IMG/VR virus record: IMGVR_UViG_3300032294_001909
Span: 1-62,170 of that record
Length of the DNA: 62,170 nucleotides
Origin: a virus
Strand: one strand, 5' to 3'
A program made the position numbers and the translations under genes. The notes below the pieces were generated by a model, which made no database searches, was not told where the DNA came from, and saw only the letters and a list, made by a program, of their open reading frames with translations. Shown here in pieces: positions 538 through 24,694 of this stretch. The number at the start of each line of letters is the position of its first letter. The first letter of the stretch is position 1.

Positions 538-582
538 CCCCCCTTGACAACCATCGGGCCACGGGTTATGCGCGGGCGGGCC

Positions 583-627
583 GTGATAAAATGCGTTGTG
601 GGCAACACTAGGGTAGTATTTTATCAC
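583..627. promoter_or_regulatory. Intergenic inverted repeat 1
   Basis: Arms GTGATAAAAT (583-592) and ATTTTATCAC (618-627), arm starts 35 bp apart. It lies between the end of the GP88-type gene and the promoter of the next leftward gene, 45 bp upstream of that -35 box. Confidence 0.85.
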
Positions 628-663
628 ACTTCTGGGAACCGGTTTCCCGGCCCCCGTTATCGA

Positions 664-1398: not shown

Positions 1399-1441
1399 CT
1401 TGGCTCCGTGCATTGGGGAGGGTACATCGGGGAACGCCACT

Positions 1442-1470
1442 AACCTAGCATCTTGGGAAATCTTTGGCAA
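1442..1470 (-). promoter_or_regulatory. sigma70-type promoter for the GP88-type gene
   Basis: Leftward TTGCCA (1470-1465), 17-bp spacer, TAGGTT (1447-1442) with upstream TGC. It sets the transcript start near 1435 and excludes the longer ORF start. Confidence 0.55.
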
Positions 1471-1514
1471 CCCCCTTGACAAGGACTGGACACCGTGTTA
1501 TGCGGGCGCCAACG

Positions 1515-1558
1515 GTGATAAAATACATGTTATGTATGTAATATAGGCATTTTATCAC
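1515..1558. promoter_or_regulatory. Intergenic inverted repeat 2
   Basis: Arms 1515-1524 (GTGATAAAAT) and 1549-1558 (ATTTTATCAC), arm starts 34 bp apart, 44 bp upstream of the -35 box of the GP88-type gene. Confidence 0.85.
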
Positions 1559-1569
1559 CAAAAGGGAAG

Positions 1570-1590
1570 CCCCCGGCGAAGTGCCGGGGG
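1570..1590 (-). terminator. Terminator hairpin after the acidic protein gene
   Basis: Eight-base stem CCCCCGGC/GCCGGGGG with a 5-nt loop, followed leftward by CTTCCCTTTT. It sits between the stop codon at 1602 and inverted repeat 2. Confidence 0.7.
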
Positions 1591-1601
1591 CGTTCCTTGG
1601 A

Positions 1602-2000
1602 TTAGAACGGCAGGTCGTCGTTCAATTCCTCGACCTGAATTTTCAGGTCGAAGTCATCGAACCCGTTGTGGTATCCGGCCACCGGCTGCTGGGCGTCGGG
1701 GTCGTTGAAATCCCTGTCTTCGGGATGCGGCCCCGGCTCCCCGGTGTAGTAGGGGTTCCGCTCCCACGTGTCGTAGGAGGTGAGGATCCATTCCCGGTCG
1801 GGGTTCTCCCGCCCGACGTTCCACGCATACTCCCGCATGGCCTCGGCGGGGGTGGCGGGGTGGTCGTTCTCTCGTTCCCACGCCATCTGGTTGTACTCCT
1901 TCTCCTCCCAGTCGAGGTCGTCGTGGTCACCCCACCCCTCCATTGCTTCCTCCCACCCGTCGAGGTCGATGTTTTCCCGGTCGTCGTAGTAGTCGCTCAT
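1602..2000 (-). CDS. Highly acidic protein with SSB-like C-terminal tip
   Basis: 132 residues, extremely rich in Asp and Glu, with many Trp and Tyr. It ends ...VEELNDDLPF, closely resembling the C-terminal tip of bacterial single-stranded DNA binding protein (DDDIPF), the docking peptide for RecO, PriA, exonuclease I and others (established). No OB fold is visible, so it is not an SSB itself. An acidic DNA-mimic or decoy for SSB-binding host enzymes is my inference. The start MSDYYDDREN at 2000 is chosen because AGGAG precedes it; the frame is open 20 codons further upstream. Confidence 0.7.
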   Translation of the reverse strand: MSDYYDDRENIDLDGWEEAMEGWGDHDDLDWEEKEYNQMAWERENDHPATPAEAMREYAWNVGRENPDREWILTSYDTWERNPYYTGEPGPHPEDRDFNDPDAQQPVAGYHNGFDDFDLKIQVEELNDDLPF

Positions 2001-2051
2001 TGTGGATCTCCTGTTGCGGTGGCGGCGGGCTGCGGAGTGCAACCCACGCGC

Positions 2052-2080
2052 AATGTGCAACGGGCGGGAAGCCTTTACAA
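2052..2080 (-). promoter_or_regulatory. Weak promoter candidate for the acidic protein gene
   Basis: Leftward TTGTAA (2080-2075), 17-bp spacer, CACATT (2057-2052). Poor -10 match; the neighbouring TGTAAC repeat suggests activator dependence. Confidence 0.3.
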
Positions 2081-2097
2081 GAGGGAGTTTAGAAATT

Positions 2098-2114
2098 GTT
2101 ACACAACTGTTACA
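2098..2114 (-). promoter_or_regulatory. TGTAAC direct repeat, copy A
   Basis: Two TGTAAC hexamers on the minus strand (2114-2109 and 2103-2098) in an 11-bp period, ending 11 bp from inverted repeat 3. The same layout recurs at 5597-5613 and 6122-6138. Confidence 0.6.
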
Positions 2115-2125
2115 CTCGGGGTCGC

Positions 2126-2160
2126 GTGATAAAACATAGGTCGCCCGTGCATTTTATCAC
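2126..2160. promoter_or_regulatory. Intergenic inverted repeat 3
   Basis: Arms GTGATAAAAC (2126-2135) and ATTTTATCAC (2151-2160), arm starts 25 bp apart. It belongs to the short-spacing class that carries a TGTAAC repeat. Confidence 0.85.
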
Positions 2161-2172
2161 GCCCCGTGAAAA

Positions 2173-2200
2173 GGGGGAGAGGGCCGAAGCCCCCTCCCCC
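2173..2200 (-). terminator. Terminator after the 2207-2596 gene
   Basis: Long GC stem GGGGGAG-GGGGC / GCCC-TCTCCCCC with a tetraloop, followed leftward by TTTTC. Confidence 0.8.
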
Positions 2201-2206
2201 ACCCGA

Positions 2207-2596
2207 TCAGAGAAACTTGGAGATTGCCTTGAACGTGGAGGCAGAGACCATCTCCTCGTCAGTCATCTTGAGGATGCGGATGGCGTTCTCCACTTCGTTG
2301 ATGTCGTCATCGATACGGTATCTATGATCGACAGGCTCCGGGCGCTTGGCGATGAGGTCGGCGGGAATCATGAATCGCGCCGTCACGGATTCGGTGCTGC
2401 GGGCGTGGCCTACGGTATCCTTGTGAGCCATCTTCCACGAGGACACATCCAGCGAAGCGATCACCATCTTGTCCCACTTCTCCAACTCCTTGGTGTACTT
2501 CTCGTACAGAGCGGGGTACGCCTTCATCTCCTTCAGCTTCTTCTCCAGAGCAGCGATCACCTTCTTGGTTTGCACCTTCACGGTAATTCCAGCCAT
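2207..2596 (-). CDS. Hypothetical helical protein
   Basis: 129 residues, start MAGITVKVQTKK with GGAGAACGCG before the ATG. The N-terminal third is rich in Lys, Glu and Leu and probably forms a coiled coil (ALEKKLKEMKAYPALYEKY). No known family is recognised. It lies 61 bp downstream of the 2658-3200 gene with no inverted repeat or promoter between, so the two are probably one operon from the promoter at 3233-3261. Confidence 0.7.
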   Translation of the reverse strand: MAGITVKVQTKKVIAALEKKLKEMKAYPALYEKYTKELEKWDKMVIASLDVSSWKMAHKDTVGHARSTESVTARFMIPADLIAKRPEPVDHRYRIDDDINEVENAIRILKMTDEEMVSASTFKAISKFL

Positions 2597-2618
2597 CGCG
2601 TTCTCCGGTAGAGGTGGT

Positions 2619-2642
2619 GCCCCCCGGCGGATGCCGGGGGGC
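2619..2642 (-). terminator. Intercistronic GC hairpin
   Basis: Stem GCCCCCCGGC/GCCGGGGGGC between two genes of one operon. No U-run follows, so it more likely protects or attenuates the mRNA than terminates it. Confidence 0.55.
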
Positions 2643-2657
2643 GGTACTGCTATCTTG

Positions 2658-3200
2658 TCACGCCAGTTCCAGCACGTTCCCGTTCACCGCCGCCCGCGAG
2701 ACGTTGGTCAACGTAAACATACGATACCGCCCGGAGGGAAGCAACTTCTCAATCCGGCGCTTGGCGATAGTCTTCGGTGCAGACTTGACCGGCTTCCGAG
2801 GAGTTCCCTCCTGAATCACGATCTTATGATTCAGCAGCCCCGACACATACAGCGCACCCGTTTCGTTGTGCATCCTGACACCGGGGAACCCGTCCACATT
2901 GGTATAGGTGTCCTTGTTGGTGTATGCGGAGTTATTCCCGATCCCCTTGGTGAGAGATTCGTTCCGGCTGTTCAGGAGTTCCTGTGCGGCCTGAATCACA
3001 TGGGGCCGCGCCCCAATCTTCTGGAGCAGGGGGAGGATGCGGTTCAACTTCACGATGTCCTTCGCGTACAGCGTCTCCGTCGTGGCCCCAAGGATAAGGT
3101 GATACTTGGCGACCTCCCCCGTCTCCTTGGTGGTGTAGGTGAAGCTGGCGAAGTGTGCGCTTATGCGCCGTGCGAGTGCTTCGAGTAGCTGGTGAATCAT
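2658..3200 (-). CDS. Hypothetical basic protein
   Basis: 180 residues, start MIHQLLEALARRISAHF with GGAGAG upstream. The middle contains HLILGATTETLYAKDIVKLNR and the C-terminal third is Lys/Arg-rich (RKPVKSAPKTIAKRRIEKLL), which would suit nucleic-acid binding (inference). No family recognised. It is the first gene of a two-gene leftward operon behind the best sigma70 promoter of the arm (TTGACA-N17-TATTCT). Confidence 0.7.
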   Translation of the reverse strand: MIHQLLEALARRISAHFASFTYTTKETGEVAKYHLILGATTETLYAKDIVKLNRILPLLQKIGARPHVIQAAQELLNSRNESLTKGIGNNSAYTNKDTYTNVDGFPGVRMHNETGALYVSGLLNHKIVIQEGTPRKPVKSAPKTIAKRRIEKLLPSGRYRMFTLTNVSRAAVNGNVLELA

Positions 3201-3232
3201 GGGTTATACTCTCCGTTAGAGTGTGAGCCCCA

Positions 3233-3261
3233 AGAATAGCGTGGGGCAACCCCGGTGTCAA
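3233..3261 (-). promoter_or_regulatory. Strong sigma70-type promoter
   Basis: Leftward TTGACA (3261-3256), 17 bp, TATTCT (3238-3233). Inverted repeat 4 ends 14 bp upstream of the -35 box. Confidence 0.75.
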
Positions 3262-3275
3262 CCCCCCACTTTTGC

Positions 3276-3319
3276 GTGATAAAATGTTCTTGTATATGGA
3301 ACGCCGTGCATTTTATCAC
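3276..3319. promoter_or_regulatory. Intergenic inverted repeat 4
   Basis: Arms 3276-3285 and 3310-3319, GTGATAAAAT/ATTTTATCAC, arm starts 34 bp apart, 14 bp from the -35 box. Confidence 0.88.
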
Positions 3320-3339
3320 GCCCGGAGGGCGAGAAAAAC

Positions 3340-3363
3340 CGCCGCCCCCCGGAGGGGGCGGCG
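3340..3363 (-). terminator. Terminator after ardC
   Basis: Ten-base stem CGCCGCCCCC/GGGGGCGGCG followed leftward by GTTTTTC: a canonical intrinsic terminator. Confidence 0.85.
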
Positions 3364-3373
3364 TCTTCTCCTC

Positions 3374-4243
3374 TTACTGTTCCTCGCTGGACTCCTTAGC
3401 GAACGTGACCCCTAGGATGTGGTCGGCTGCTTTCTGCGCGGCGGATGCGGCGTCGAGAATCAGGCGGGGCTCCTTGCCCAACCGCGTTGCCCAATGCTGG
3501 ACGTAGGCGGTGCTGTTGTCCTGCACCGCGTCGAGGATTCCGCACTCAGCCGACAGGAACGCCGCCGTCATTTCGGCAATCAATTCCTCGCGGCTGTAGG
3601 GGTCGGTGCCGAACGTGCCGTCGAGCTTCCGGTCGAGTCTCGTGGCGTGTCCCGTGCTGTGCGCCATCTCGTGAAACATCGTGGAGTAGTAGCTTTCGGC
3701 GTTCACAAACTGAGCCAGCAGGGGCATCGTGATCTCGTCTCGTGAGGGCGTGTAGAACGCCATGTCGGACGATTGCACGGTAATCTTGGGGGGATTCTTC
3801 ATACCCCGCACCACCGATTCCGCCGCCGCAATGGGCTCCTTAGCCTTGACCTCCTCCACCTTGACGTTGCAGCCGTTCGTCTGAGCGAGGTTCCACACGT
3901 TGTACCAGCGAAGCATGGGGATGGTCTTCTTCTCCCCGGTGGCCTTGTCGGCAACCTCCTTGAAATTCCAGAACATGATCGGGGTGGCCTTTTCCCCCGT
4001 GTTGATGCGCCCCCCAAGGGCGTTGCAGCCCTTGAACGTCACCCATTGGCCGGTGGGGTAGCTCTTGATCTGCTGCAACATCCCCAAGAACAGGGCGTTG
4101 CTGCCACGGTACGGCTTCTTCGACTGGGCATTGTGGGGACGCCCCAGCATCCCCCCGGACCACGGCTTGCGCCACGGGATGACGCCGCCGTTGAGGGCGT
4201 CGATGAATCGCTGCGCGATAGTGTCGCGAATGTCCTGTTGCAT
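3374..4243 (-). CDS. ardC: ArdC-type anti-restriction protein
   Basis: 289 residues in the family's usual layout. The N-terminal ssDNA-binding domain (about 1-130) carries IAQRFIDALNGGVIPWRKPW and later MFWNFKEV. A zincin-like C-terminal domain has the metal motif FHEMAHSTGH and the downstream glutamate helix REELIAEMTAAFL. ArdC proteins bind single-stranded DNA and protect incoming plasmid or phage DNA from type I restriction (established). It is transcribed alone. Start MQQDIRDTI is preceded by GGGGGAAC. The key residues HExxH are intact, so the protein should be functional. Confidence 0.92.
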   Translation of the reverse strand: MQQDIRDTIAQRFIDALNGGVIPWRKPWSGGMLGRPHNAQSKKPYRGSNALFLGMLQQIKSYPTGQWVTFKGCNALGGRINTGEKATPIMFWNFKEVADKATGEKKTIPMLRWYNVWNLAQTNGCNVKVEEVKAKEPIAAAESVVRGMKNPPKITVQSSDMAFYTPSRDEITMPLLAQFVNAESYYSTMFHEMAHSTGHATRLDRKLDGTFGTDPYSREELIAEMTAAFLSAECGILDAVQDNSTAYVQHWATRLGKEPRLILDAASAAQKAADHILGVTFAKESSEEQ

Positions 4244-4285
4244 TGTTCCCCCTGTCGGGTGGTGAGGTGTTGCGGTGAACGGCTG

Positions 4286-4314
4286 TATAATGCCCCCGGC
4301 GACCGCCGCCGCAA
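4286..4314 (-). promoter_or_regulatory. Promoter candidate for ardC
   Basis: Leftward TTGCGG (4314-4309), 17 bp, ATTATA (4291-4286); TTATAC one base earlier with an 18-bp spacer is an alternative -10. Confidence 0.5.
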
Positions 4315-4332
4315 CAGGGGGAAACCGCCGCC

Positions 4333-4367
4333 GTTACATTCCCGTTACAATGTCACGGGTTTGTAAC
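4333..4367 (-). promoter_or_regulatory. TGTAAC repeat cluster, copy B
   Basis: Minus-strand TGTAAC at 4349-4344 and 4338-4333, 11-bp period, plus an inverted copy (TGTAAC on the plus strand, 4362-4367). Lies between inverted repeat 5 and the ardC promoter. The rest of the 300-bp gap holds only this promoter, the inverted repeat and a terminator. Confidence 0.55.
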
Positions 4368-4420
4368 AGTCTCGTGGGGGCACTTGACAAACGGCGGCTA
4401 CCGTGTTACACGCGGGTGCG

Positions 4421-4487
4421 GTGATAAAATGCCACGGGCGATGATAAAATAACATAGGCGGTTGTTTCTTGAGGAGCATTTTATCAC
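4421..4487. promoter_or_regulatory. Intergenic inverted repeat 5 with extra half-site
   Basis: Arms 4421-4430 and 4478-4487 (57 bp apart) plus an additional ATGATAAAAT half-site at 4441-4450, giving three half-sites. Confidence 0.8.
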
Positions 4488-4505
4488 GGTTGTGGACACA
4501 AAAAA

Positions 4506-4535
4506 ACTGGGGGAGCGGTTTCTCGCTCCCCCAGT
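4506..4535 (-). terminator. Terminator after the 4544-4759 gene
   Basis: Twelve-base stem ACTGGGGGAGCG/CGCTCCCCCAGT followed leftward by TTTTTT. Confidence 0.9.
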
Positions 4536-4543
4536 CTCTTGCG

Positions 4544-4759
4544 TTAGCTGTGGGTGTATCCGTCCTTCTCCACACCCAACCACAGCCCGCTGGTGGCCTG
4601 TACCATCACGGCACCGCTCCCGTCGAAGATCGGATGCACCTTCATCGTTCCCCCCTTCACCGATTCGGGGAACCGCTCCCCGACGTTTTCCAACGCCTTG
4701 CGCTGCTGCGGGGTCAGGGTCACGACGGGATCACCGCTGGCGTTCCAAACGATTTTCAT
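4544..4759 (-). CDS. Hypothetical small protein
   Basis: 71 residues, start MKIVWNASGDPVVTLT with CAGGAGAAG upstream. Contains PQQRKALENVGERFPESVKGG. Not recognised. It is second in an operon after the 4820-5083 gene; the two are separated by a long GC hairpin without a U-run and no promoter. Confidence 0.65.
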   Translation of the reverse strand: MKIVWNASGDPVVTLTPQQRKALENVGERFPESVKGGTMKVHPIFDGSGAVMVQATSGLWLGVEKDGYTHS

Positions 4760-4784
4760 GAGTGCTTCTCCTGTTGGGGACAGT

Positions 4785-4811
4785 ACCGGGGGGAGGGAAT
4801 CTCCCCCCGGT
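4785..4811 (-). terminator. Intercistronic GC hairpin
   Basis: Eleven-base perfect stem ACCGGGGGGAG/CTCCCCCCGGT between two co-directional genes; no U-run. Confidence 0.5.
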
Positions 4812-4819
4812 GTTCACGG

Positions 4820-5083
4820 TCACGGCTTCTCGTTCGTTTCCTTGCCGGTGATTTCCAGCATCCGGTGGTTATACAGCGCGGTCAGGTCGGCGTAGGCTTC
4901 CTGAAGGCCCCGGCGACTCTGGACATACCGGCGACCCGTCAGGGTGGTTGCGGCTTCTCGCATCGCGGGCGGCGTGTACATCCGGCTGGCCTTGATTCCG
5001 TGGTCAAGGTACATACGCAAGGCGCTGGCGATGACCTTGATCCGGTACGCTTCAATCTGCTGCGGCGTGGTGAACGCTTTCAT
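4820..5083 (-). CDS. Hypothetical protein, paralogue of the 7702-7926 product
   Basis: 87 residues, start MKAFTTPQQIEAYRIK with GGGGA before the ATG. It shares along its length the pattern TTPxQIEAxR...VIxSAxxxYL...GxKAxRxYTPxxMR...TGxxYxxSRxGL with the gene at 7702-7926. This marks a duplicated small family inside this arm. Predicted all-helical; function unknown. First gene of a two-gene operon behind inverted repeat 6. Confidence 0.72.
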   Translation of the reverse strand: MKAFTTPQQIEAYRIKVIASALRMYLDHGIKASRMYTPPAMREAATTLTGRRYVQSRRGLQEAYADLTALYNHRMLEITGKETNEKP

Positions 5084-5142
5084 GCTGTCCCCGTGTTAGG
5101 AGGGTGTCGGATAGGGGCCGGAGTGCCCCGCCCGACGTTTCC

Positions 5143-5171
5143 AACCTAGCACTATTCGACCCGGAACGCAA
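5143..5171 (-). promoter_or_regulatory. sigma70-type promoter
   Basis: Leftward TTGCGT (5171-5166), 17 bp, TAGGTT (5148-5143) with TGC extension; 13 bp downstream of inverted repeat 6. Confidence 0.6.
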
Positions 5172-5184
5172 TAGTCACTTTTGG

Positions 5185-5239
5185 GTGATAAAATGCCATA
5201 GGTGATAAAATGCTGAAGGGCAGCATGAAATTTTATCAT
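5185..5239. promoter_or_regulatory. Intergenic inverted repeat 6 with two left arms
   Basis: Left arms GTGATAAAAT at 5185-5194 and 5202-5211; right arm ATTTTATCAT at 5230-5239. The outer arms start 45 bp apart, one further helical turn than the 35-bp class. Confidence 0.8.
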
Positions 5240-5257
5240 CATTTATGGCACAAAAAA

Positions 5258-5293
5258 CTGCGGGGTGCCGGTAGAGTTCACGGCACCCCGCAG
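5258..5293 (-). terminator. Terminator after the zinc-ribbon gene
   Basis: Thirteen-base stem CTGCGGGGTGCCG/CGGCACCCCGCAG followed leftward by TTTTTTG. Confidence 0.9.
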
Positions 5294-5300
5294 CTTCCTG

Positions 5301-5495
5301 TCACCCGTACAGGTCGCCGCCGTTCTCCAAGATGGTGGCGCACCCGTTGCAGTAGGCGTAGTGCGGCTGGATCCGCACCACCTTGCCGCACCCCGCGCAC
5401 TTTTTGCGGACGTTCGTGCGCTGCGTCTTGCGGTAGAACGCCCGCACCTCCGGGTCGTCGCCGCCGTGCCACTCGCCAAAGTTATCGTCGTACAT
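5301..5495 (-). CDS. Small zinc-ribbon protein
   Basis: 64 residues, start MYDDNFGEWHGGDD at 5495 with GGAGG eight bases before. The frame is open further upstream only from a TTG without an RBS. Cys pairs CAGC...CNGC spaced like a zinc ribbon sit in the C-terminal half (VRKKCAGCGKVV...YAYCNGCATI). A DNA- or RNA-binding role is inference. Single-gene unit behind inverted repeat 7. Confidence 0.7.
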   Translation of the reverse strand: MYDDNFGEWHGGDDPEVRAFYRKTQRTNVRKKCAGCGKVVRIQPHYAYCNGCATILENGGDLYG

Positions 5496-5576
5496 TGCCC
5501 AACCCTCCGGTTTCGGTTCCGGCGTTTCCGGGGTGGATCCGCCTACGGCGGAATATACGGCCAGATCAAGGGGGAA

Positions 5577-5605
5577 ACCATAGGCGTTGCACAATTGTTA
5601 CACAA
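5577..5605 (-). promoter_or_regulatory. Promoter candidate for the zinc-ribbon gene
   Basis: Leftward TTGTGT (5605-5600), 17 bp, TATGGT (5582-5577). The -35 overlaps the TGTAAC repeat, which fits activator-dependent or repressed control. Confidence 0.4.
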
Positions 5606-5634
5606 TCGTTACAATCACCAATCGGTGATAAAAT
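5595..5634. repeat. 40-bp direct repeat, copy 1
   Basis: Identical over 40 bp to 6120-6159. It contains the TGTAAC pair (5613-5608, 5602-5597) and the proximal arm of inverted repeat 7, showing recent duplication of a whole control module. Confidence 0.9.
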
Positions 5635-5658
5635 AACCTAGATGGCGCATTTTATCAC
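5625..5658. promoter_or_regulatory. Intergenic inverted repeat 7
   Basis: Arms 5625-5634 and 5649-5658, arm starts 24 bp apart; TGTAAC repeat 11 bp away. Confidence 0.87.
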
Positions 5659-5663
5659 AACTT

Positions 5664-5691
5664 CTCCGGGGCCGGTTTCCCAGCCCCGGAG
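5664..5691 (-). terminator. Hairpin after the 5699-6019 gene
   Basis: Nine-base stem CTCCGGGGC/GCCCCGGAG with a 10-nt loop; the 3' tail is not U-rich, so termination is less certain than at its neighbours. Confidence 0.5.
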
Positions 5692-5698
5692 GGTCGTA

Positions 5699-6019
5699 TC
5701 ACTCTTCCGTGAAATCTTCGATTGCTTCGTCCAGAGTCTCGAACGGACCAAACCATGCCGAATCCGGGAGGCAACCCGGGAGGCAGTAGCACCAGCACCA
5801 GCCACCTTCCAGCCCCATCTCGCGCACAATCGCGTCCAGCATCAGGTCACGCACTCGCGAGTTCATGCTGGCCAGACGGAACTCCGGGAGCTTCATGAAC
5901 TCGTGAATCTCATCTTCCAGCCCTGCGGCCAATTCCGTCGCCGTCAATTGCGCGACCATGACGTTGGGGAGCTTGTGCGGATCCAACTCATCCGCCTTGC
6001 GCGAGTGATACATGGCCAT
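5699..6019 (-). CDS. Hypothetical protein with Cys/Trp cluster
   Basis: 106 residues, start MAMYHSRKADELDPHK at 6019 with GGAGG upstream. The frame is open to 6130, but that part lies within and upstream of the promoter. A conspicuous GGWCWCYCLPGC segment lies near residues 73-84, possibly metal binding. Acidic C-terminus (ETLDEAIEDFTEE). Not recognised. Confidence 0.68.
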   Translation of the reverse strand: MAMYHSRKADELDPHKLPNVMVAQLTATELAAGLEDEIHEFMKLPEFRLASMNSRVRDLMLDAIVREMGLEGGWCWCYCLPGCLPDSAWFGPFETLDEAIEDFTEE

Positions 6020-6076
6020 TAGTCCAACCCTCCGGGTTTGGTTTGGAAGCCCCGAATCGTTCGGGGCTTCGCCCCG

Positions 6077-6105
6077 AAGATAGGTGGGCGCAAGCCCAAA
6101 ATCAA
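6077..6105 (-). promoter_or_regulatory. sigma70-type promoter
   Basis: Leftward TTGATT (6105-6100), 17 bp, TATCTT (6082-6077). Confidence 0.55.
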
Positions 6106-6119
6106 GCACGGCGACACGC

Positions 6120-6159
6120 TTGTTACACAATCGTTACAATCACCAATCGGTGATAAAAT
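6120..6159. repeat. 40-bp direct repeat, copy 2
   Basis: Identical to 5595-5634; carries TGTAAC pair (6138-6133, 6127-6122) and the proximal arm of inverted repeat 8. Confidence 0.9.
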
Positions 6160-6183
6160 GCATGTACTGGGGCATTTTATCAC
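6150..6183. promoter_or_regulatory. Intergenic inverted repeat 8
   Basis: Arms 6150-6159 and 6174-6183, arm starts 24 bp apart; TGTAAC repeat 11 bp away. Confidence 0.87.
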
Positions 6184-6205
6184 CGCTGGAGGGGGCAAAA
6201 AAAAA

Positions 6206-6229
6206 CTCCCGCCGATCTTCCGGCGGGAG
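6206..6229 (-). terminator. Terminator after the 6239-6493 gene
   Basis: Stem CTCCCGCCG/CGGCGGGAG followed leftward by TTTTTTTTT. Confidence 0.9.
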
Positions 6230-6238
6230 CTTCTTTCG

Positions 6239-6493
6239 CTAGACGGCTTTCTGTGCTTCGTTCGCCAGTTCCGCGATGACGTAGCTATCGAACGAACGGG
6301 GAACGCTGTGGTCCACCAAATCTCGTGAAGCCCACTCAAACTCGAACCAGTAGGAACGGGCAGAGGGGAGTCTGACTCCCTTGAAGCCCCGGAAGAAACT
6401 GTCCACGAATACTGCCGGGACAGTCACCCGGACGATAGAGCCTTTCGACTCCACCCGGAACGGGTGCCCGTTGAAACTCACCTTCGTTCGCAT
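6239..6493 (-). CDS. Hypothetical protein
   Basis: 84 residues, start MRTKVSFNGHPFRVES with GAGGAGCGCATA before the ATG. The N-terminal half has alternating hydrophobic and charged residues typical of beta strands; no motif recognised. Single-gene unit behind inverted repeat 9 and a strong promoter. Confidence 0.7.
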   Translation of the reverse strand: MRTKVSFNGHPFRVESKGSIVRVTVPAVFVDSFFRGFKGVRLPSARSYWFEFEWASRDLVDHSVPRSFDSYVIAELANEAQKAV

Positions 6494-6546
6494 TATGCGC
6501 TCCTCAGTTATGGTGCCGTCGCGCCCCGGATGGGCTTGACGAATGT

Positions 6547-6574
6547 ATTATAGCACATTCCGGGCAATATGCAA
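6547..6574 (-). promoter_or_regulatory. Strong extended -10 promoter
   Basis: Leftward TTGCAT (6574-6569), 16 bp, consensus TATAAT (6552-6547) with TGC extension, and an A-tract between the -35 box and inverted repeat 9. Confidence 0.78.
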
Positions 6575-6588
6575 GTATTTTTTTTCTG

Positions 6589-6633
6589 GTGATAAAATGC
6601 ATTGGCGCTATATAGGCGGGGGCATTTTATCAC
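6589..6633. promoter_or_regulatory. Intergenic inverted repeat 9
   Basis: Arms 6589-6598 and 6624-6633, arm starts 35 bp apart, 14 bp from the -35 box. Confidence 0.88.
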
Positions 6634-6651
6634 CGTTGGAGGGCGCAAAAA

Positions 6652-6673
6652 GCCCCCAGCTTTCGCTGGGGGC
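6652..6673 (-). terminator. Terminator after the 6682-6927 gene
   Basis: Stem GCCCCCAGC/GCTGGGGGC with TTTC loop, followed leftward by TTTTTG. Confidence 0.88.
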
Positions 6674-6681
6674 CTCTTGCT

Positions 6682-6927
6682 TCAGGAGTCGAGTGCGCTC
6701 TTCACGATTGCCCGGATGCGCTTCTGGTCCTTGCTGTGCGTGACATCCACCCACACGCCGTTCACTTCCGCCTTCGCGATGTCGTGCGAGTAGATGCTAC
6801 CCAGTTCCGTGAAGATGCCTTCCACTTCCGCCAAACGGATGTTCCCCCGCTTGTTGTCCTTGAGGGTGGCGTACCACCCGTTCCGTAGGCGGATGCGGGT
6901 ACCGCTCTTGAGGTCATTCGTGAGCAT
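6682..6927 (-). CDS. Hypothetical SH3-like small protein
   Basis: 81 residues, start MLTNDLKSGTRIRLRNGWYATL at 6927 with CGGAGCCACC before it; the longer frame overlaps the promoter. The sequence RIRLRNGWYATLKDNKRGNIRLAEVEG resembles small beta-barrel proteins (a weak fold-level impression only). Function unknown. Confidence 0.68.
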   Translation of the reverse strand: MLTNDLKSGTRIRLRNGWYATLKDNKRGNIRLAEVEGIFTELGSIYSHDIAKAEVNGVWVDVTHSKDQKRIRAIVKSALDS

Positions 6928-6981
6928 GGTGGCTCCGTGTAGCTGGTGGCAGCGAGTCCGGGATGGCTTCGCTGTGCCAAC

Positions 6982-7010
6982 AACGTAACACCTCCGGGGC
7001 TGAAATGCAA
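6982..7010 (-). promoter_or_regulatory. sigma70-type promoter
   Basis: Leftward TTGCAT (7010-7005), 17 bp, TACGTT (6987-6982); 13 bp from inverted repeat 10, with an A-tract between. Confidence 0.6.
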
Positions 7011-7023
7011 GCACTTTTTTTCG

Positions 7024-7068
7024 GTGATAAAATAATAGTACAGGGTATGCCGCAGCGCATTTTATCAC
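7024..7068. promoter_or_regulatory. Intergenic inverted repeat 10
   Basis: Arms 7024-7033 and 7059-7068, arm starts 35 bp apart. Confidence 0.88.
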
Positions 7069-7087
7069 CAATTATGCCCACGAGAGA

Positions 7088-7115
7088 GCCCCGCCTCCCA
7101 TATGGGAGACGGGGC
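7088..7115 (-). terminator. Second hairpin after the 7204-7479 gene
   Basis: Thirteen-base stem with one mismatch (GCCCCGCCTCCCA / TGGGAGACGGGGC), followed leftward by TCTCTCG. Confidence 0.6.
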
Positions 7116-7168
7116 CGGGGTGGTAACCCGCTCGAATGCTGTTGCGTCACGAGCCATTCCCGGGAGCA

Positions 7169-7193
7169 GCCCCCCGGCATCTCACCGGGGGGC
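7169..7193 (-). terminator. First hairpin after the 7204-7479 gene
   Basis: Stem GCCCCCCGG/CCGGGGGGC with a 7-nt loop, 10 bp after the stop codon; no U-run. Confidence 0.55.
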
Positions 7194-7203
7194 TTCCCAC
7201 TCG

Positions 7204-7479
7204 TCACTCTTCGGTTCGGATGAACCATTCCGACATCACATGCGCCTCTTCCTCGCCATCGGGGGAGCGGATGAGGCCGTACTCCAGCACCTCGTTCTTG
7301 AACAGCACCAGCGTGAGGACCGGCTCCTCCGGGAGATGAAGCCCCATCTCCCGGAACACTTCCGCCGACTTGGTGCGCTTGCCATCCGCCAGCACCGCCA
7401 CCAGCCCCTTGGCCACGATAGCCTTAGCCATCTCATAGCGGTACAGGCCACTACGGGTCACCGCCTCGACTCGTAACAT
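7204..7479 (-). CDS. Hypothetical protein
   Basis: 91 residues, start MLRVEAVTRSGLYRYE with AGGAGGCTGTC before the ATG, ending EWFIRTEE. Contains ADGKRTKSAEVFREMGLHLPEEPVLTLVLF. Mixed alpha/beta by eye; not recognised. Monocistronic behind inverted repeat 11. Confidence 0.7.
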   Translation of the reverse strand: MLRVEAVTRSGLYRYEMAKAIVAKGLVAVLADGKRTKSAEVFREMGLHLPEEPVLTLVLFKNEVLEYGLIRSPDGEEEAHVMSEWFIRTEE

Positions 7480-7539
7480 GACAGCCTCCTAGGCTGTTCA
7501 GGTTCGCCGGGGCACCGGAGTGTGCCGCCGACACCAATA

Positions 7540-7567
7540 TGATTACCTTTCAGCCCCCAAAAGTCAA
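7540..7567 (-). promoter_or_regulatory. sigma70-type promoter
   Basis: Leftward TTGACT (7567-7562), 16 bp, TAATCA (7545-7540); 13 bp from inverted repeat 11, A-tract between. Confidence 0.6.
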
Positions 7568-7580
7568 GCACTTTTTTTCC

Positions 7581-7625
7581 GTGATAAAACAGCCCCTCTA
7601 CTGGGGTGGGTGGGCATTTTATCAT
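7581..7625. promoter_or_regulatory. Intergenic inverted repeat 11
   Basis: Arms GTGATAAAAC (7581-7590) and ATTTTATCAT (7616-7625), arm starts 35 bp apart; both arms carry one substitution. Confidence 0.82.
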
Positions 7626-7653
7626 GCGTGACCGATCCGCTAGGAAAAAATTG

Positions 7654-7688
7654 CCGGGGGGCTAGGAACCTTCTGCCTAGCCCCCCGG
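7654..7688 (-). terminator. Terminator after the 7702-7926 gene
   Basis: Thirteen-base stem CCGGGGGGCTAGG/CCTAGCCCCCCGG followed leftward by CAATTTTTT. Confidence 0.9.
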
Positions 7689-7701
7689 AATCATTTACCG
7701 C

Positions 7702-7926
7702 CTAGTTCATGAACAGGGCGTTCAGGTCGTTCAGGGCTGCCTCCAGCCCCTTCCGGCTGCGGGGGTACGTCTTGCCGGTGTACTGGGAAGCAACCGCCCG
7801 CATGTTCGCCGGGGTGTAGGCGCGGTTCGCCTTCATGCCGGTCTTCAGGTACAGCTTGATGGCAGACATGATCACACGAAGCCGAAAGGCTTCGATCTGC
7901 CCGGGGGTGGTTAACACTCGCTCCAT
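7702..7926 (-). CDS. Hypothetical protein, paralogue of the 4820-5083 product
   Basis: 74 residues, start MERVLTTPGQIEAFRL at 7926 with CTGGAGCGAG before it. Shares the TTPxQIEAxR / YTPxxMR / TGxxYxxSRxGLxxAxxDLxAL pattern with the gene at 4820-5083, but is shorter at the C-terminus. Predicted helical, function unknown; a duplicated family within one arm. Confidence 0.72.
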   Translation of the reverse strand: MERVLTTPGQIEAFRLRVIMSAIKLYLKTGMKANRAYTPANMRAVASQYTGKTYPRSRKGLEAALNDLNALFMN

Positions 7927-7982
7927 GCTCGCTCCAGTAGGAGAGTGCGTCCGCATTGCCGAAGTGCATTGCGAACACCCAC

Positions 7983-8011
7983 AATATGGCTAATGTTAGA
8001 CTGGGAGTCAA
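7983..8011 (-). promoter_or_regulatory. sigma70-type promoter
   Basis: Leftward TTGACT (8011-8006), 17 bp, CATATT (7988-7983); 13 bp from inverted repeat 12. Confidence 0.6.
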
Positions 8012-8024
8012 GCATTTTTTTTGG

Positions 8025-8069
8025 GTGATAAAACAGCCCTGCGTTTGGTGTACATGCGCATTTTATCAC
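8025..8069. promoter_or_regulatory. Intergenic inverted repeat 12
   Basis: Arms GTGATAAAAC (8025-8034) and ATTTTATCAC (8060-8069), arm starts 35 bp apart. Confidence 0.86.
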
Positions 8070-8079
8070 AGAAAAGCGA

Positions 8080-8104
8080 GCCCCCCGGCGCGAGGCCGGG
8101 GGGC
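8080..8104 (-). terminator. Terminator after the 8111-8380 gene
   Basis: Stem GCCCCCCGGC/GCCGGGGGGC, then TCGCTTTTC leftward. 8061-8098 is identical to 8518-8555, a duplicated repeat-arm plus terminator module. Confidence 0.82.
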
Positions 8105-8110
8105 GTCCCC

Positions 8111-8380
8111 TCATAACTGGACGTTGTGGTAGTCGTCGTACTCGGCGTTGTCGTCGTCGTCCCCCTCGTCGTCGGACCCGAACATCGCCGTCCACTCGGC
8201 GGGGGTGATGCCGGTCTTGATGAACTCCCGCTGCTCGGCGTTGAGCATCGGGAACGCCTTCTGAATCAGGGTACCGGCCTTCCACGCCGCCTCACAGGCG
8301 TCGAACTCGTCCTGCGTGAGGGGGACGAACATGGCATTCATCTTGCCAGACATCTGGCTCCTGCGAGTCACCTTGAGCAT
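8111..8380 (-). CDS. Hypothetical protein with acidic tail
   Basis: 89 residues, start MLKVTRRSQMSGKMNAMF at 8380 with AGGAGACAGG before it. The core GTLIQKAFPMLNAEQREFIKTG is helical, followed by TPAEWTAMFG and an Asp/Glu-rich stretch. Its acidic tail recalls the acidic protein at 1602-2000 but lacks the DDLPF end. Function unknown. Confidence 0.7.
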   Translation of the reverse strand: MLKVTRRSQMSGKMNAMFVPLTQDEFDACEAAWKAGTLIQKAFPMLNAEQREFIKTGITPAEWTAMFGSDDEGDDDDNAEYDDYHNVQL

Positions 8381-8439
8381 TGTCCTGTCTCCTGAGAGAG
8401 GGTGTCGTGCCGCGCCGGGTTGCGCTGCCGACAGGAACC

Positions 8440-8467
8440 AATATACACTACTTTCCCCCCGGCGCAA
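8440..8467 (-). promoter_or_regulatory. sigma70-type promoter
   Basis: Leftward TTGCGC (8467-8462), 16 bp, TATATT (8445-8440); 14 bp from inverted repeat 13. Confidence 0.6.
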
Positions 8468-8481
8468 GTGCGGATTTTCCG

Positions 8482-8526
8482 GTGATAAAATAGCACCCGG
8501 GCACCCCTATAGAGTTATTTTATCAC
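8482..8526. promoter_or_regulatory. Intergenic inverted repeat 13
   Basis: Arms 8482-8491 and 8517-8526, GTGATAAAAT/ATTTTATCAC, arm starts 35 bp apart. Confidence 0.88.
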
Positions 8527-8536
8527 AGAAAAGCGA

Positions 8537-8561
8537 GCCCCCCGGCGCGAGGCCGAGGGGC
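8537..8561 (-). terminator. Terminator after the RadC-like gene
   Basis: Stem GCCCCCCGGC/GCCGAGGGGC with one mismatch, then TCGCTTTTC leftward; near copy of 8080-8104. Confidence 0.75.
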
Positions 8562-8577
8562 TGGTACTGCGGGGTGG

Positions 8578-9057
8578 CTAGAGCCACCCCTGTTCCGCAA
8601 AGCTAGTGTAGCGGGCCGCACCGATGATGATGTGGTCGTGGACAGCGATGTCCAACAGCCGCCCCGCTGCCACCAACTGCGCCGTAATGTTCCTATCCTC
8701 GGCGCTGGGGGTGGGATCCCCGCTGGGGTGATTGTGGGCGATGATGAGTGCAGCGGCATTGAGTGCGATGGCCATCCGGAAAACTTCCCGGGGATGCACC
8801 AGCGATGAGTCAAGCAACCCACGGGTAACCTCAACCCGGGCGATGCACCGATGCTGCGCGTTCAAGATGGCCACGCAGAAAACTTCGGAGTCCTCGTTTT
8901 CCAGATCGGAAAACAGCGCGGCAGCTTCCCTCGGCGTACGCACCGGGGCGAGTACCGGCGGGGCGTTGTACTCGGGGCGGGGCGTACGCACCAGCCGCAG
9001 CCACGGGGCGTGGCCAGTCACACGGGGCGTCACTAACGACATCCGGGGCGTTTCCAT
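8578..9057 (-). CDS. radC: RadC-family JAB/MPN metalloprotein
   Basis: 159 residues covering only the C-terminal JAB domain of RadC; the usual helix-hairpin-helix N-terminus is missing, as in many phage and plasmid copies. The metal motif HNHPSGDPTPSAED (residues 108-121) and an upstream Glu near residue 58 are intact. RadC was once thought to be a repair protein, but its activity is unsettled; mobile elements often carry it beside anti-restriction genes such as the ardC seen here. Start METPRMSLV has GAGGGAACC upstream. Confidence 0.9.
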   Translation of the reverse strand: METPRMSLVTPRVTGHAPWLRLVRTPRPEYNAPPVLAPVRTPREAAALFSDLENEDSEVFCVAILNAQHRCIARVEVTRGLLDSSLVHPREVFRMAIALNAAALIIAHNHPSGDPTPSAEDRNITAQLVAAGRLLDIAVHDHIIIGAARYTSFAEQGWL

Positions 9058-9115
9058 GCGGGTTCCCTCTGTTCGGGGTTGTCAGCCGCGCCGGGTTGCG
9101 CTGCCGACACCCCAA

Positions 9116-9143
9116 GTATTACCCTCCAACCCCCAAAAGTCAA
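9116..9143 (-). promoter_or_regulatory. sigma70-type promoter for the RadC-like gene
   Basis: Leftward TTGACT (9143-9138), 16 bp, TAATAC (9121-9116); 13 bp from inverted repeat 14, A-tract between. Confidence 0.62.
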
Positions 9144-9156
9144 GCACTTTTTTTCG

Positions 9157-9201
9157 GTGATAAAACAGCCCCCCGGGGGTAGGGGATGGGCATTTTATCA
9201 C
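9157..9201. promoter_or_regulatory. Intergenic inverted repeat 14
   Basis: Arms GTGATAAAAC (9157-9166) and ATTTTATCAC (9192-9201), arm starts 35 bp apart. Rightmost copy; none is seen in the AT-rich remainder. Confidence 0.87.
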
Positions 9202-9208
9202 AGAGAGG

Positions 9209-9232
9209 GCTCCCCCGCCGAAGCGGGGGAGC
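9209..9232 (-). terminator. Terminator after the three-gene operon
   Basis: Stem GCTCCCCCGC/GCGGGGGAGC followed leftward by CTCTCTG. Confidence 0.65.
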
Positions 9233-9242
9233 GATCCGTGGG

Positions 9243-9425
9243 CTATCGGCGGCGAGCCTCCTCCTCCATGATCCGCAGCCGACGCGCAAACTCCTGCTGC
9301 ACCGCAGGAATCCGATCCCCATGAATCGTACGCTGCGCCTGAGTGGTGATGCGAAGCTGCTCTGCACGAGCTTGCATGGGCGCGTTCCCGACGCGCACCC
9401 GATCCGGTAAGACAGTCCAGTCCAC
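9243..9425 (-). CDS. Hypothetical helical protein
   Basis: 60 residues, from a GTG at 9425 (VDWTVLPDRVRV) that has GGAGG five bases before it; the alternative upstream TTG lies inside the RBS. The C-terminal half is Arg/Glu-rich and helical (QEFARRLRIMEEEARRR). Third gene of an operon with 9483-9749 and 9814-10035. Confidence 0.62.
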   Translation of the reverse strand: MDWTVLPDRVRVGNAPMQARAEQLRITTQAQRTIHGDRIPAVQQEFARRLRIMEEEARRR

Positions 9426-9449
9426 GGTAACCTCCAAGAGGGGGGGGGT

Positions 9450-9474
9450 GCCCCCCGGCGGGGTGCCGGGGGGC
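9450..9474 (-). terminator. Intercistronic GC hairpin
   Basis: Stem GCCCCCCGGC/GCCGGGGGGC; 9431-9476 is almost identical to the region before 9804, so hairpin plus RBS was copied as a unit. Confidence 0.55.
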
Positions 9475-9482
9475 GGTTGTTG

Positions 9483-9749
9483 CTAGTCGATGTCGATCTT
9501 CAATTCACCATCGGTGCTGATCCAGAAGTGCCCCAGCGTCACCTCATGTTCGTCGCTGGTGCGGCAGTTGTGCAGGGTGACGTTCCGAGTCTGGTCAATG
9601 GTCCGCAGGAAGTCGATCAACTCCCCGACAGTCAGGTGGTGCGATCCGCGAAACTGACGCACCATTTCCCCGCAGCACTCCGCTTCCTCGTTGAATTCGT
9701 ATGGCATCCCTTCAACGTTTTCGCTCACCTTCCCACGGATTCGTAACAT
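9483..9749 (-). CDS. Hypothetical acidic protein
   Basis: 88 residues, start MLRIRGKVSENVEGMPY at 9749 with GGAGG nine bases before; a GTG two codons upstream is too close to the RBS. Ends DGELKIDID. Contains EEAECCGEMVRQFRGSHHL. Not recognised; middle gene of a three-gene operon. Confidence 0.66.
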   Translation of the reverse strand: MLRIRGKVSENVEGMPYEFNEEAECCGEMVRQFRGSHHLTVGELIDFLRTIDQTRNVTLHNCRTSDEHEVTLGHFWISTDGELKIDID

Positions 9750-9779
9750 TCGCACGTTCCTCCAAGAGGGGGGGGGGGT

Positions 9780-9804
9780 GCCCCCCGGCGGGGTGCCGGG
9801 GGGC
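9780..9804 (-). terminator. Intercistronic GC hairpin
   Basis: Stem GCCCCCCGGC/GCCGGGGGGC, near copy of 9450-9474, after the 9814-10035 stop codon; no U-run. Confidence 0.55.
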
Positions 9805-9813
9805 GGGGGGTGC

Positions 9814-10035
9814 TTATCGAGCCACCCGGTTGATGTAGCTCACCTCACCACCGAACATCCCGACGAACACCCGGTACCCGTCCACCGTGGCGACCCACGT
9901 GGTGTTGGGGCGGCCCGAGTTGCTCACGCTGCTGCTGTCCAACTTCCAGTTGGCCCCGGGGATGACCTGCTCCACCACCAGCCGGTCCTGCGCCACCAGC
10001 AGGTCCATCGCGGCCATCGTCACGCTCTGCGACAT
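9814..10035 (-). CDS. Hypothetical protein
   Basis: 73 residues, start MSQSVTMAAMDLLVAQ at 10035 with GAGGGACGC before it. The C-terminal half (TTWVATVDGYRVFVGMFGGEVSYINRVAR) looks like a small beta sheet. First gene of a leftward three-gene operon that has its own promoter but no inverted repeat, which sets it apart from the rest of the arm. Confidence 0.68.
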   Translation of the reverse strand: MSQSVTMAAMDLLVAQDRLVVEQVIPGANWKLDSSSVSNSGRPNTTWVATVDGYRVFVGMFGGEVSYINRVAR

Positions 10036-10094
10036 TGTGCGTCCCTCTGTTCGAGTCTGTCGGGTGGGGCGGGCTTGCCCTGCCGACGACCCCA

Positions 10095-10122
10095 AGTTTA
10101 CCTTTCGACCGCCGAATGTCAA
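10095..10122 (-). promoter_or_regulatory. sigma70-type promoter of the three-gene operon
   Basis: Leftward TTGACA (10122-10117), 16 bp, TAAACT (10100-10095). No GTGATAAAAT repeat upstream. Confidence 0.65.
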
Positions 10123-10237
10123 GGCCCGGAAGGTTTCTTGGAACTGGAAAGTTTTTTGCCGGCGACCACCCTAGGGTGGCTCACGAACATCACGCTAATA
10201 TTTTTTTGCCTATAGAACTTTTCTTATACAATAATTA

Positions 10238-10277
10238 TGCGTCCCCCAACATGCGCCCCCAATACTGCGCCCCCCAA
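10238..10277. repeat. Three iteron-like 14-bp repeats at the composition boundary
   Basis: TGCGTCCCCCAA (10238), TGCGCCCCCAA (10252) and TGCGCCCCCCAA (10266) in an exact 14-bp period. They lie in the 366-bp gene-free gap (10036-10401) between divergent transcription units. The rest of the gap is AT-rich, with A/T tracts around 10330-10360. Confidence 0.65.
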
Positions 10278-10368
10278 GTTACGTCCTTGTTCTAGGAATA
10301 TCAAAAAATTATCGACCCCTCGGCATGTTGAAAAAAAATTCTAAAAAAATTTTTGGGTATGGGAAGAC

Positions 10369-13378: not shown

Positions 13379-13885
13379 TTATTCGCAGAATTGATATATA
13401 AACGGCTTGGGAGGATGAAACTCAGGTAACCCATATTTTAGTTGAAGGCTTTTTATTAGTTCCTTGGATGGTCTTCGTTTATTATCCCATCCCATAATCC
13501 GTGTATTTTTATTTACTTCTTCGATAAATTCTTTAAATGGCCCGAAATAAAGTAGCTTTAGTTCTGTGTATGTGCTGTTTGGCTCTAATATAGCAATCAA
13601 GTCTACGCTTTCTTCGCCCGTGTATGTACAAGAAACTTCGGTGTGCATTTCACTGACAGTTTTTACTTGTACCGTTTTGCCGTCCATGAGAACTAAATCA
13701 ACGGCGTCATCGTGGCCCTTTTGTTTTTTTGTAGCATTCCATACAGAGCGTAATATAGCTTCACCGTAGTCACCGGAATGGTTGAACTTTTCTCCGTAAA
13801 ATCCAACGCTACGGTGAAGATTATTTACTTGCCGCCAAACTTCTAGATACGTTTTTGCTTCGTCATTTAATGGTATTAGTGACAT
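13379..13885 (-). CDS. PD-(D/E)XK-like nuclease candidate
   Basis: 168 residues. GDYGEAILRSVW provides a conserved Glu helix. DAVDLVLMDGKTVQVKT fits the restriction-endonuclease-fold active site with a QxK variant (D...QVK). This is a fold-level inference. The start codon (13885) lies inside the 3' end of the frameshifted frame of the upstream gene, a 23-nt overlap. Last gene of the leftward block. Confidence 0.6.
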   Translation of the reverse strand: MSLIPLNDEAKTYLEVWRQVNNLHRSVGFYGEKFNHSGDYGEAILRSVWNATKKQKGHDDAVDLVLMDGKTVQVKTVSEMHTEVSCTYTGEESVDLIAILEPNSTYTELKLLYFGPFKEFIEEVNKNTRIMGWDNKRRPSKELIKSLQLKYGLPEFHPPKPFIYQFCE

Positions 13886-14293
13886 TACCGGCTGTTATTG
13901 TGGTCGAGCTAAATGTGCTGTTTAGAAGGCCGCTTGTGGAAAATCCCGATGTGATAGTTCCGGATCCACTACAGGGAAAATTCCATTTTTCGTTTGCCCA
14001 TTGTTGATCGTAATACCAGATGCTATTTCCCGTATATGTATTAATGGCCGTGCCCGTGAATGGTTTAACGGTTAAACCTTCCCACCACGGGCTTACCGAA
14101 AAGGGCGGATTAAGATATCAATATTATCTAAATCGTCTTCCCAATCGGACGGGATTTCTCTAATAACTTTTGCACGAGCCTTGTCTTCGGTAGCCGCTAA
14201 TACAATGTCGCGAGCAATAACTTGTGCCAGACCAGCGTCTTCCGTTTCCGGATTGTATACAACCACGTAATCCCATACTAACTTTTTTGCCAT
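13863..14293 (-). CDS. Frameshift extension product (66 aa plus about 78 aa)
   Basis: Predicted -1 frameshift product of the 14093-14293 gene. The slippery heptamer CCCTTTT (14105-14099 read leftward) is in the correct X XXY YYZ phase (CCT TTT in frame). It is followed after 6 nt by a 7-bp stem GCCCGTG/CACGGGC (14092-14086 with 14058-14052) that encloses a second perfect hairpin at 14062-14078. The -1 frame then reads SPWWEGLTVKPFTG... and stays open to a TGA at 13865-13863. It has no start codon of its own near its beginning. The extension is Trp/Thr/Ser-rich and beta-like; function unknown. Confidence 0.6.
14093..14293 (-). CDS. Small conserved phage-type protein (zero-frame product)
   Basis: 66 residues, MAKKLVWDYVVVYNPETEDAG..., ending DNIDILIRPFR just after the slippery site. 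The pattern of beta strand, RDIVLAATEDKARAKVIREIP helix and terminal IRPF recalls a short family I associate with phages; the name is unknown. RBS AGAGGG lies before the ATG at 14293. Its termination codon sits 3 nt after the slippery heptamer. Confidence 0.75.
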   Translation of the reverse strand: MAKKLVWDYVVVYNPETEDAGLAQVIARDIVLAATEDKARAKVIREIPSDWEDDLDNIDILIRPFR

Positions 14294-14305
14294 AAAACCC
14301 TCTCT

Positions 14306-24311: not shown

Positions 24312-24650
24312 GGGCACGACCGGCTTCGACGGGGTGTGGATGATTAAGCTTTGTGTCTCGTTTGGTAAGACGAGTAAAACAGACCAAAAAATCTAACTGG
24401 CAACTATAATCTAGCCCTCGCTGCTTAATTGCGGCCTGACGAAGTAATCTGACCCACGTAGGGTTACTTTGTTCAATTACGTGGTATAGTCTTAGCACAC
24501 GGGACGTAACTAAGATGATACACAACGCTTCCCTTTGACCGCCTTGTGTTTGTTTGTTGTCAATAGGCGCCAAGAATATACAACAAACTACACACATAAA
24601 TCCTTAATAGGAAGCAATCTCGGACAGGGGTTCGATTCCCCTCGTGTCCA
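24312..24650 (+). ncRNA. ssrA: tmRNA (ssrA)
   Basis: 339 nt. Acceptor stem GGGCACG (24312-24318) pairs with CGTGTCC (24643-24649). The 5' end has the conserved GACCGGCTTCGACGGGG and the 3' end the T arm AGGGG-TTCGATT-CCCCT; CCA is not encoded. The tag frame at 24399-24428 reads GNYNLALAA followed by TAA, with the canonical ALAA proteolysis signal; resume codon GGC is inferred. It rescues stalled ribosomes and tags the product. A phage-borne tmRNA in one-piece form is uncommon. Confidence 0.93.
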
Positions 24651-24694
24651 CTTAACATGGTTGACGTTTTATAACTAATTACATGGAGAGCGGT

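Follow-up and report, generated by a model that had tools for sequence, protein, structure and literature searches.

The window, the whole 62,170-nucleotide stretch of viral DNA analysed here, carries on its minus strand a small gene, p66, that lies in a tRNA-rich variable island of this IMG/VR fragment. The gene (14093-14293) specifies a 66-aa zero-frame product, as delimited by the open reading frame, by family comparison and by an AlphaFold2 model. It is preceded by a Shine-Dalgarno-like AGAGAGGG (14298-14305) and ends, read directly from the sequence, in ATC CGC CCT TTT CGG TAA. Within the codons of a conserved Arg-Pro-Phe lies the heptamer C_CCT_TTT (14099-14105) in X_XXY_YYZ phase, and the zero-frame stop TAA (14093-14095) follows one codon past the slip codons. 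A spacer of 6 nt, CGGTAA (14098-14093), separates the heptamer from the outer of two downstream stems. An earlier sequence-only reading of this DNA had proposed a -1 ribosomal frameshift signal here, with CCCTTTT at 14105-14099 phased two codons before the p66 stop and a 6-nt spacer after it; direct inspection of the letters bears out both.

The -1 frame that overlaps the end of p66 is bounded by TGA codons at 14120-14118 and 13865-13863. It comprises 84 codons, 78 of them past the slip site, and contains no ATG, GTG or TTG, as the same reading had stated. The extension defined by sequence and family comparison (13863-14098; 78 codons and TGA) begins with a codon that shares base 14099 with the heptamer. 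Two products from one gene can be deduced, of 66 aa and 143 aa; the proposal had been 66 aa and roughly 144 aa. The added tail is rich in Ser, Thr, Asn and Gly (S+T 32%) and has the C-terminal end ..STTITAGNVTNTIK. Its coding stretch overlaps by 23 nt the ATG (13885) of the next gene, also an overlap that had been foreseen; this gene (13379-13885, minus strand, from the ORF list) encodes 168 aa with a weak Pfam match to DUF6998. No obvious Shine-Dalgarno sequence was seen before it. Given this and the overlap, translation of the 168-aa gene may be coupled to ribosomes that complete the -1 extension.

Downstream of the spacer, the outer stem pairs GCCCGTG (14086-14092) with CACGGGC (14052-14058), found both in the letters and by RNAfold. 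An inner hairpin, GGTTTAA (14072-14078) with TTAAACC (14062-14068), is evident in the sequence and incomplete in the minimum free-energy structure. For the segment 14098-14048, RNAfold gives -20.1 kcal/mol (z = -2.7), and one of 200 shuffles was equally stable. In the minimum free-energy structure the outer 7-bp stem is kept and lengthened by a G-U pair and UGG/CCA, and since this extension and the inner 7-bp hairpin compete, there are two alternative forms. The nested arrangement first described is thus right as to the presence of both 7-bp stems, and is an alternative to the RNAfold minimum rather than the minimum itself.

Taken in isolation, the -1 frame of the window could be a product of chance, because its codon usage is at background and direct searches returned nothing. 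The claim that the frame has a protein-like composition proved half right: its codon-usage score is -0.002, like that of stop-free wrong-frame stretches, against a median of 0.19 for real genes. Single-sequence searches with p66 and with the tail found no true match in phages, viral contigs, Pfam or PHROGs. Candidate matches were rejected as chance similarity inside a cell-wall hydrolase (L003/L004) and as an S/T-rich fibre repeat (L086). A neighbouring 200-aa gene, p200, was tried as a route to relatives of the window; 80 loci share it without p66 in the searched flanks, and single-sequence queries found no true p66 match anywhere on 40 contigs among them. Locus L005, with the same tRNA-p114 order as the window, carries other cargo at the p66 position. 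After the p114 gene in its tRNA array (L005:5346-5590) lie about 240 apparently non-coding bases of possible structure, for which Rfam gave no match. It is family conservation, not composition, that sets the window's -1 frame apart from chance.

The family was reached through a weak tblastn match (E = 0.5) to a 735-kb phage record, LR756501, which covers the full length of p66 and ends in ..LDQIDVIVRPF-stop. This match, judged by the C-terminus common to both, is a true remote homologue of p66. From this pair the family was built up through one IMG/VR member, found by the two-member profile at E 1.6e-15, then nine, then 45 IMG/VR loci. With LR756501 and three genome contigs, from a Bacteroidia MAG, an Elusimicrobia MAG and a Spirosoma sordidisoli scaffold, these make up the full set, of which 44 non-redundant members enter the counts. 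The window protein is 22-43% identical to 42 other members over its full length. The consensus reads (M)xKxKLFEYAVLxHPK...LA...AARxIPxxYxDKLDQVEIxVRPF, and the base domain measures 66-74 aa across the family. p66 fits the definition of the group: a bb-a-a-b domain with [LF]xY..V...HP and a C-terminal [VI]RP[FL]. The AlphaFold2 model of p66 has the same bb-a-a-b order, with a mean pLDDT of 86.9. Pfam and PHROG scans of 43 members gave stray weak matches and nothing convincing. The PDB held no convincing sequence match for the members, and a fold search there with the p66 model gave no significant match. Foldseek against BFVD aligned the whole domain to A0A8S5VES1 (Microviridae), G3GN79 and Q4Z8Z1 (Twort ORF134) at probability 1.00 and TM 0.66-0.71; with E-values of 0.007-0.03 and 16-20% identity, these uncharacterised small phage proteins provide a lead only. 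By these sequence comparisons, p66 is a member of a widespread, previously unclassified phage gene family, which was found undescribed in the literature searched, subscription papers lying outside that scope.

Nearly all members end in Arg-Pro-Phe/Leu, coded CGN-CCT-TTN, with a stop directly after. The Pro codon is CCT in 44 of the 44 non-redundant members (24% in the background of long ORFs from the same loci), and 36 have CGC for Arg (background 24.5%), which gives the reading CCC-TTT; the members share ancestry, so that such counts are not independent trials. The last codon is always TTN (TTT in 25, TTC in 14, TTG in 5). The search patterns were degenerate peptide patterns and should not impose the codons observed. 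In 42 of 44 members the stop follows the slip codons immediately, as TAG in 36 and as TAGC in 25 of these. The two exceptions are the window, where it comes one codon later, and L140, which has no stop. The window and 35 of the 43 others belong to the CCC_TTT_N class. The remaining eight have N_CCT_TTN (T/G/A_CCT_TTN), where the lack of CCC implies weaker re-pairing in the P site.

Of 44 members, 43 keep the -1 frame free of stops for 44 codons or more beyond the slip site; the +1 frame stays open that far in three and the zero frame after the stop in four. Its first start codon falls anywhere from codon 0 to codon 65. None is present in the window, L117 and L142, and in L139 and L141 starts occur only near the end; separate initiation therefore cannot explain the whole set. 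Two members found with a different query, L146 and L147, have CCCTTTT_TAG and CCCTTTC_TAG with open -1 frames, and their tails end in YTNASSLTN and YTASNLVTAAKA, respectively. The Spirosoma locus (L148) has A_CCT_TTT_TAA followed by a long stem. The one member without a separate open -1 frame, L140 (from 5001), reads TCCTTTC TTG without a stop and continues in frame into an S/T/N-rich tail. This natural fusion suggests that the tailed form can be tolerated as the sole product. Conservation of the heptamer in relatives, which the sequence-only reading had named as a check, was observed, together with that of the -1 frame. Relatives with a broken -1 frame, which it had named as counter-evidence, did not appear among the 44 members, L140 being an in-frame fusion rather than a break.

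Downstream structure is a further shared feature. The 50-nt stretches past the heptamer fold more stably than shuffled versions do (mean z -1.13; p = 1.6e-5 by Wilcoxon test), and also more stably than control stretches that follow other ORF stops of these loci (mean z -0.04; p = 3.7e-6). The hairpins mostly start a few nucleotides past the heptamer and vary in sequence among members. In L120 and L121, for instance, the stem is retained although its bases differ, being CCCCCAA/TTGGGGG and CCCCTTAATG/CATTAGGGG. The structure expected in relatives is present in the family at large and weak or absent in some members, a marked hairpin being missing from L127, L130, L135, L136 and L138. An upstream stimulator of the Shine-Dalgarno type was sought in ten members and none was seen.

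The extensions of the family are S-, T-, N-, G- and A-rich and about 45-190 aa long. Most end in a short motif, Y-x-A-S/A-x-V/L, such as SYTASQV, TYMNASSI or VYNAAQI. A loose expression of this motif, composed after inspection of the tails, fits 31 of 43 extensions, including that of the window; it also fits 39 of the 627 ends of other ORFs and 13% of the tails after shuffling. The window tail is absent from the matches of a profile built on the other tails. Its similarity to them is weak and best to L136 and L141 (the latter aligned as TSGFSTSGLLNSTFSSTTITAGNV / TTNLSTSGLFNSLNNSTYVSASTL); 3.7% of shuffles reach its top score, and its mean score over all tails was reached by none of 300. It is linked to the other tails by architecture, composition and this weak similarity. 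No Pfam domain, Ig-like domains included, was matched in a scan of ten tails, and a search for a signal that the tails might share with other phage proteins encoded at these loci turned up none. The tail is probably flexible and, by itself, disordered.

Tails diverge far faster than the domain. Identities of domain and tail are 99% vs 32% for L127/L129, 99% vs 46% for L111/L112, and 92% vs 35% for L101/L102. Ka/Ks, which counts against the frameshift reading, is only about 0.57 in the best -1 pair (L120/L121) and about 1 in a subgroup ending in Arg-Pro-Leu (L127, L129, L131, L133). This subgroup shares C_CCT_TTG_TAG and has domains that are 85-99% identical with tails that are 17-60% identical. 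Its tails are without the C-terminal motif, and the sequence switches directly after TAGCCCTG, as if the tails had been exchanged right at that point.

Several explanations other than frameshifting have to be weighed. CCCTTTT might merely code for the conserved C-terminal Arg-Pro-Phe, with a -1 frame that is open by chance and untranslated. In its favour, a protein C-terminus kept as RPF predicts CCNTTY and the codon usage of the window's -1 frame is at background level. This reading was overturned by the constrained choice among synonymous Pro and Arg codons and by a -1 frame that stays open where the other two frames seldom do; the common tail motif and the downstream hairpins also argue against it, and it is now considered improbable. 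About equally improbable is a separate downstream gene that is translated from a non-standard start or by coupling to p66 termination. L145, L138, L143 and L121 have an early start codon in the -1 frame, and the Spirosoma locus, which has the same site as L137, contains a 152-aa ATG ORF within it. However, three members have no start codon in that frame, and others have one near its end at the earliest. The favoured synonymous codons belong to the zero-frame gene and coincide exactly with the slip heptamer, and the L140 fusion indicates that the fused form is tolerated.

Far less credible still is an assembly or sequencing error, or a real frameshift mutation, that splits one gene of about 144 aa. 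A single extra T in the T-run would join both frames, but the same split, at the same codon and with the same slip type, recurs in some 45 independently assembled contigs and an isolate genome; on this recurrence the error or mutation reading is excluded for the family. Slippage of the polymerase rather than of the ribosome has a comparably negligible probability as the source of the second product. Many members do have a five-T run (CCCTTTTTAG), yet those with CCCTTTC_TAG or CCCTTTG_TAG, and the window with CCCTTTTCGG, have 3-4 T only, fewer than polymerase slippage usually requires. Downstream hairpins that keep a set distance fit ribosomal slippage instead.

A programmed -1 ribosomal frameshift in a small phage gene, conserved in a new gene family, is the reading that these comparisons support with high confidence, and the slip signal is very probably a real conserved device rather than chance. 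For the window, it is the remote homologues with the same signal in the same place that settle the matter. Most ribosomes would read p66 to its stop and produce the compact 66-aa domain predicted from the ORF. Some would pause at C_CCU_UUU, owing to the hairpin 6 nt downstream and the nearby stop codon. A minority of ribosomes, to judge from the phase of the heptamer and its conservation, would then let tRNA-Pro and tRNA-Phe slip back by one base. Across the family this corresponds to a tandem slippage of tRNA-Pro and tRNA-Phe/Leu from CCU_UUN to CCC_UUU, and in most relatives the stop next to enter the A site would add to the pause. Tandem rather than stop-dependent slippage is simplest for the window, as its stop lies one codon further on. 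Slipped ribosomes would bypass the stop and add the flexible S/T/N-rich tail, with a predicted junction of ..DILIRPFSVSPWWEGL.. in the window fusion. Plain and tailed copies of the protein would thereby be made in a set ratio.

By analogy, the best guess at a purpose is that the protein forms a small oligomer, with an exposed and quickly evolving tail on a few of its subunits. The rapid change of the tail suggests an exposed part or the partner of a changing target and points to an interaction under pressure. A bolder and tentative possibility is that the fixed -1 slip junction serves as a frameshift-dosed device for swapping fast-changing tails in many unrelated phages, with the tail exposed on the virion or aimed at a changing host target. 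On this bolder view, a small protein has been overlooked in many unrelated phages, the 735-kb phage and the Spirosoma locus included. The family, which matches neither Pfam, PHROGs nor a solved structure and occurs in phages from many samples, appears to need frameshifting for its long form. It also supplies natural CCC_TTT_N signals with hairpins as a ready set.

Annotated neighbours of the family genes include DNA polymerase, clamp loader, ribonucleotide reductase, terminase, portal, endolysin, GroEL and a Sak4-like protein. No tape-measure gene was seen among 30 scanned neighbours, several large ones of which matched no family. The Spirosoma member comes from S. sordidisoli TY50 (NZ_SBLB01000001), on a 2-Mb scaffold, and is the same in sequence as L137 from IMG/VR. 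It lies near a gene with a weak match to a virion structural protein, and the locus is probably a prophage. About 10.3 kb into the window, GC content drops from 0.59 to 0.40. ArdC-, RadC- and GP88-like genes (Pfam) lie to the left of this point (1-10300), and a myovirus-like genome with tRNAs lies to the right. The contig may be chimeric or may span the junction between two elements. The phage part has six tRNA genes, an RtcB-like RNA ligase (29933-31237) and its own tmRNA gene (24312-24651) with the tag GNYNLALAA.

Frameshifting in phages has been sought almost only at tail chaperones, and elsewhere gene callers lose the -1 part. The recent predictor PRFect takes annotated joined phage genes as its training set and equates them with tail chaperones (PMC10885494). 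In the lambda tail assembly chaperone gpG/gpGT and its relatives, ribosomes slip by -1 close to the end of a small gene, and a minority of the product gains a C-terminal extension (PMC5009743), as is proposed for p66. The p66 family differs in that no adjoining tape measure was seen, its annotated flanks hold replication, packaging, lysis and tRNA genes, it has no Pfam or PHROG match and its slip site is CCC_TTT_N. The family does not look like a tail-assembly chaperone, as far as neighbours and sequence matches can tell; the earlier suggestion of a case outside the known tail chaperones is supported by annotated flanks without a tape measure and by the lack of any chaperone-family match.

Another parallel is found in gene 10A/10B of T7 and T3, where the short form is in the majority and a minority carries an added C-terminal part (PMC5009743). 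Phage extensions of this kind are added by -1 or +1 frameshifting or in frame, varying between phages (PMC5009743), and the in-frame fusion of L140 parallels such variation. Unlike 10A/10B, p66 is a 66-74-aa bb-a-a-b domain without a capsid or tail-tube match in any search. The family tails also differ from the Ig-like extensions of T3 10B, A2 and A118, since none of the ten scanned had a Pfam match. With dnaX (PMC3711429) and the -1 frameshifts of insertion sequences, p66 shares an X_XXY_YYZ heptamer followed by a 3′ hairpin. Those systems use A_AAA_AAG-type heptamers in different genes, and no upstream Shine-Dalgarno stimulator was seen in the ten p66-family members inspected. Three hallmarks of bacterial and phage -1 frameshifting are present in the sequence: a phased heptamer, an open -1 frame independent of a start codon, and a 3′ structure, for which the usual distance is about 5-9 nt downstream of the heptamer and the window spacer is 6 nt. 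The mechanism proposed here would be a textbook one, while the gene family and its use of frameshifting appear to be new.
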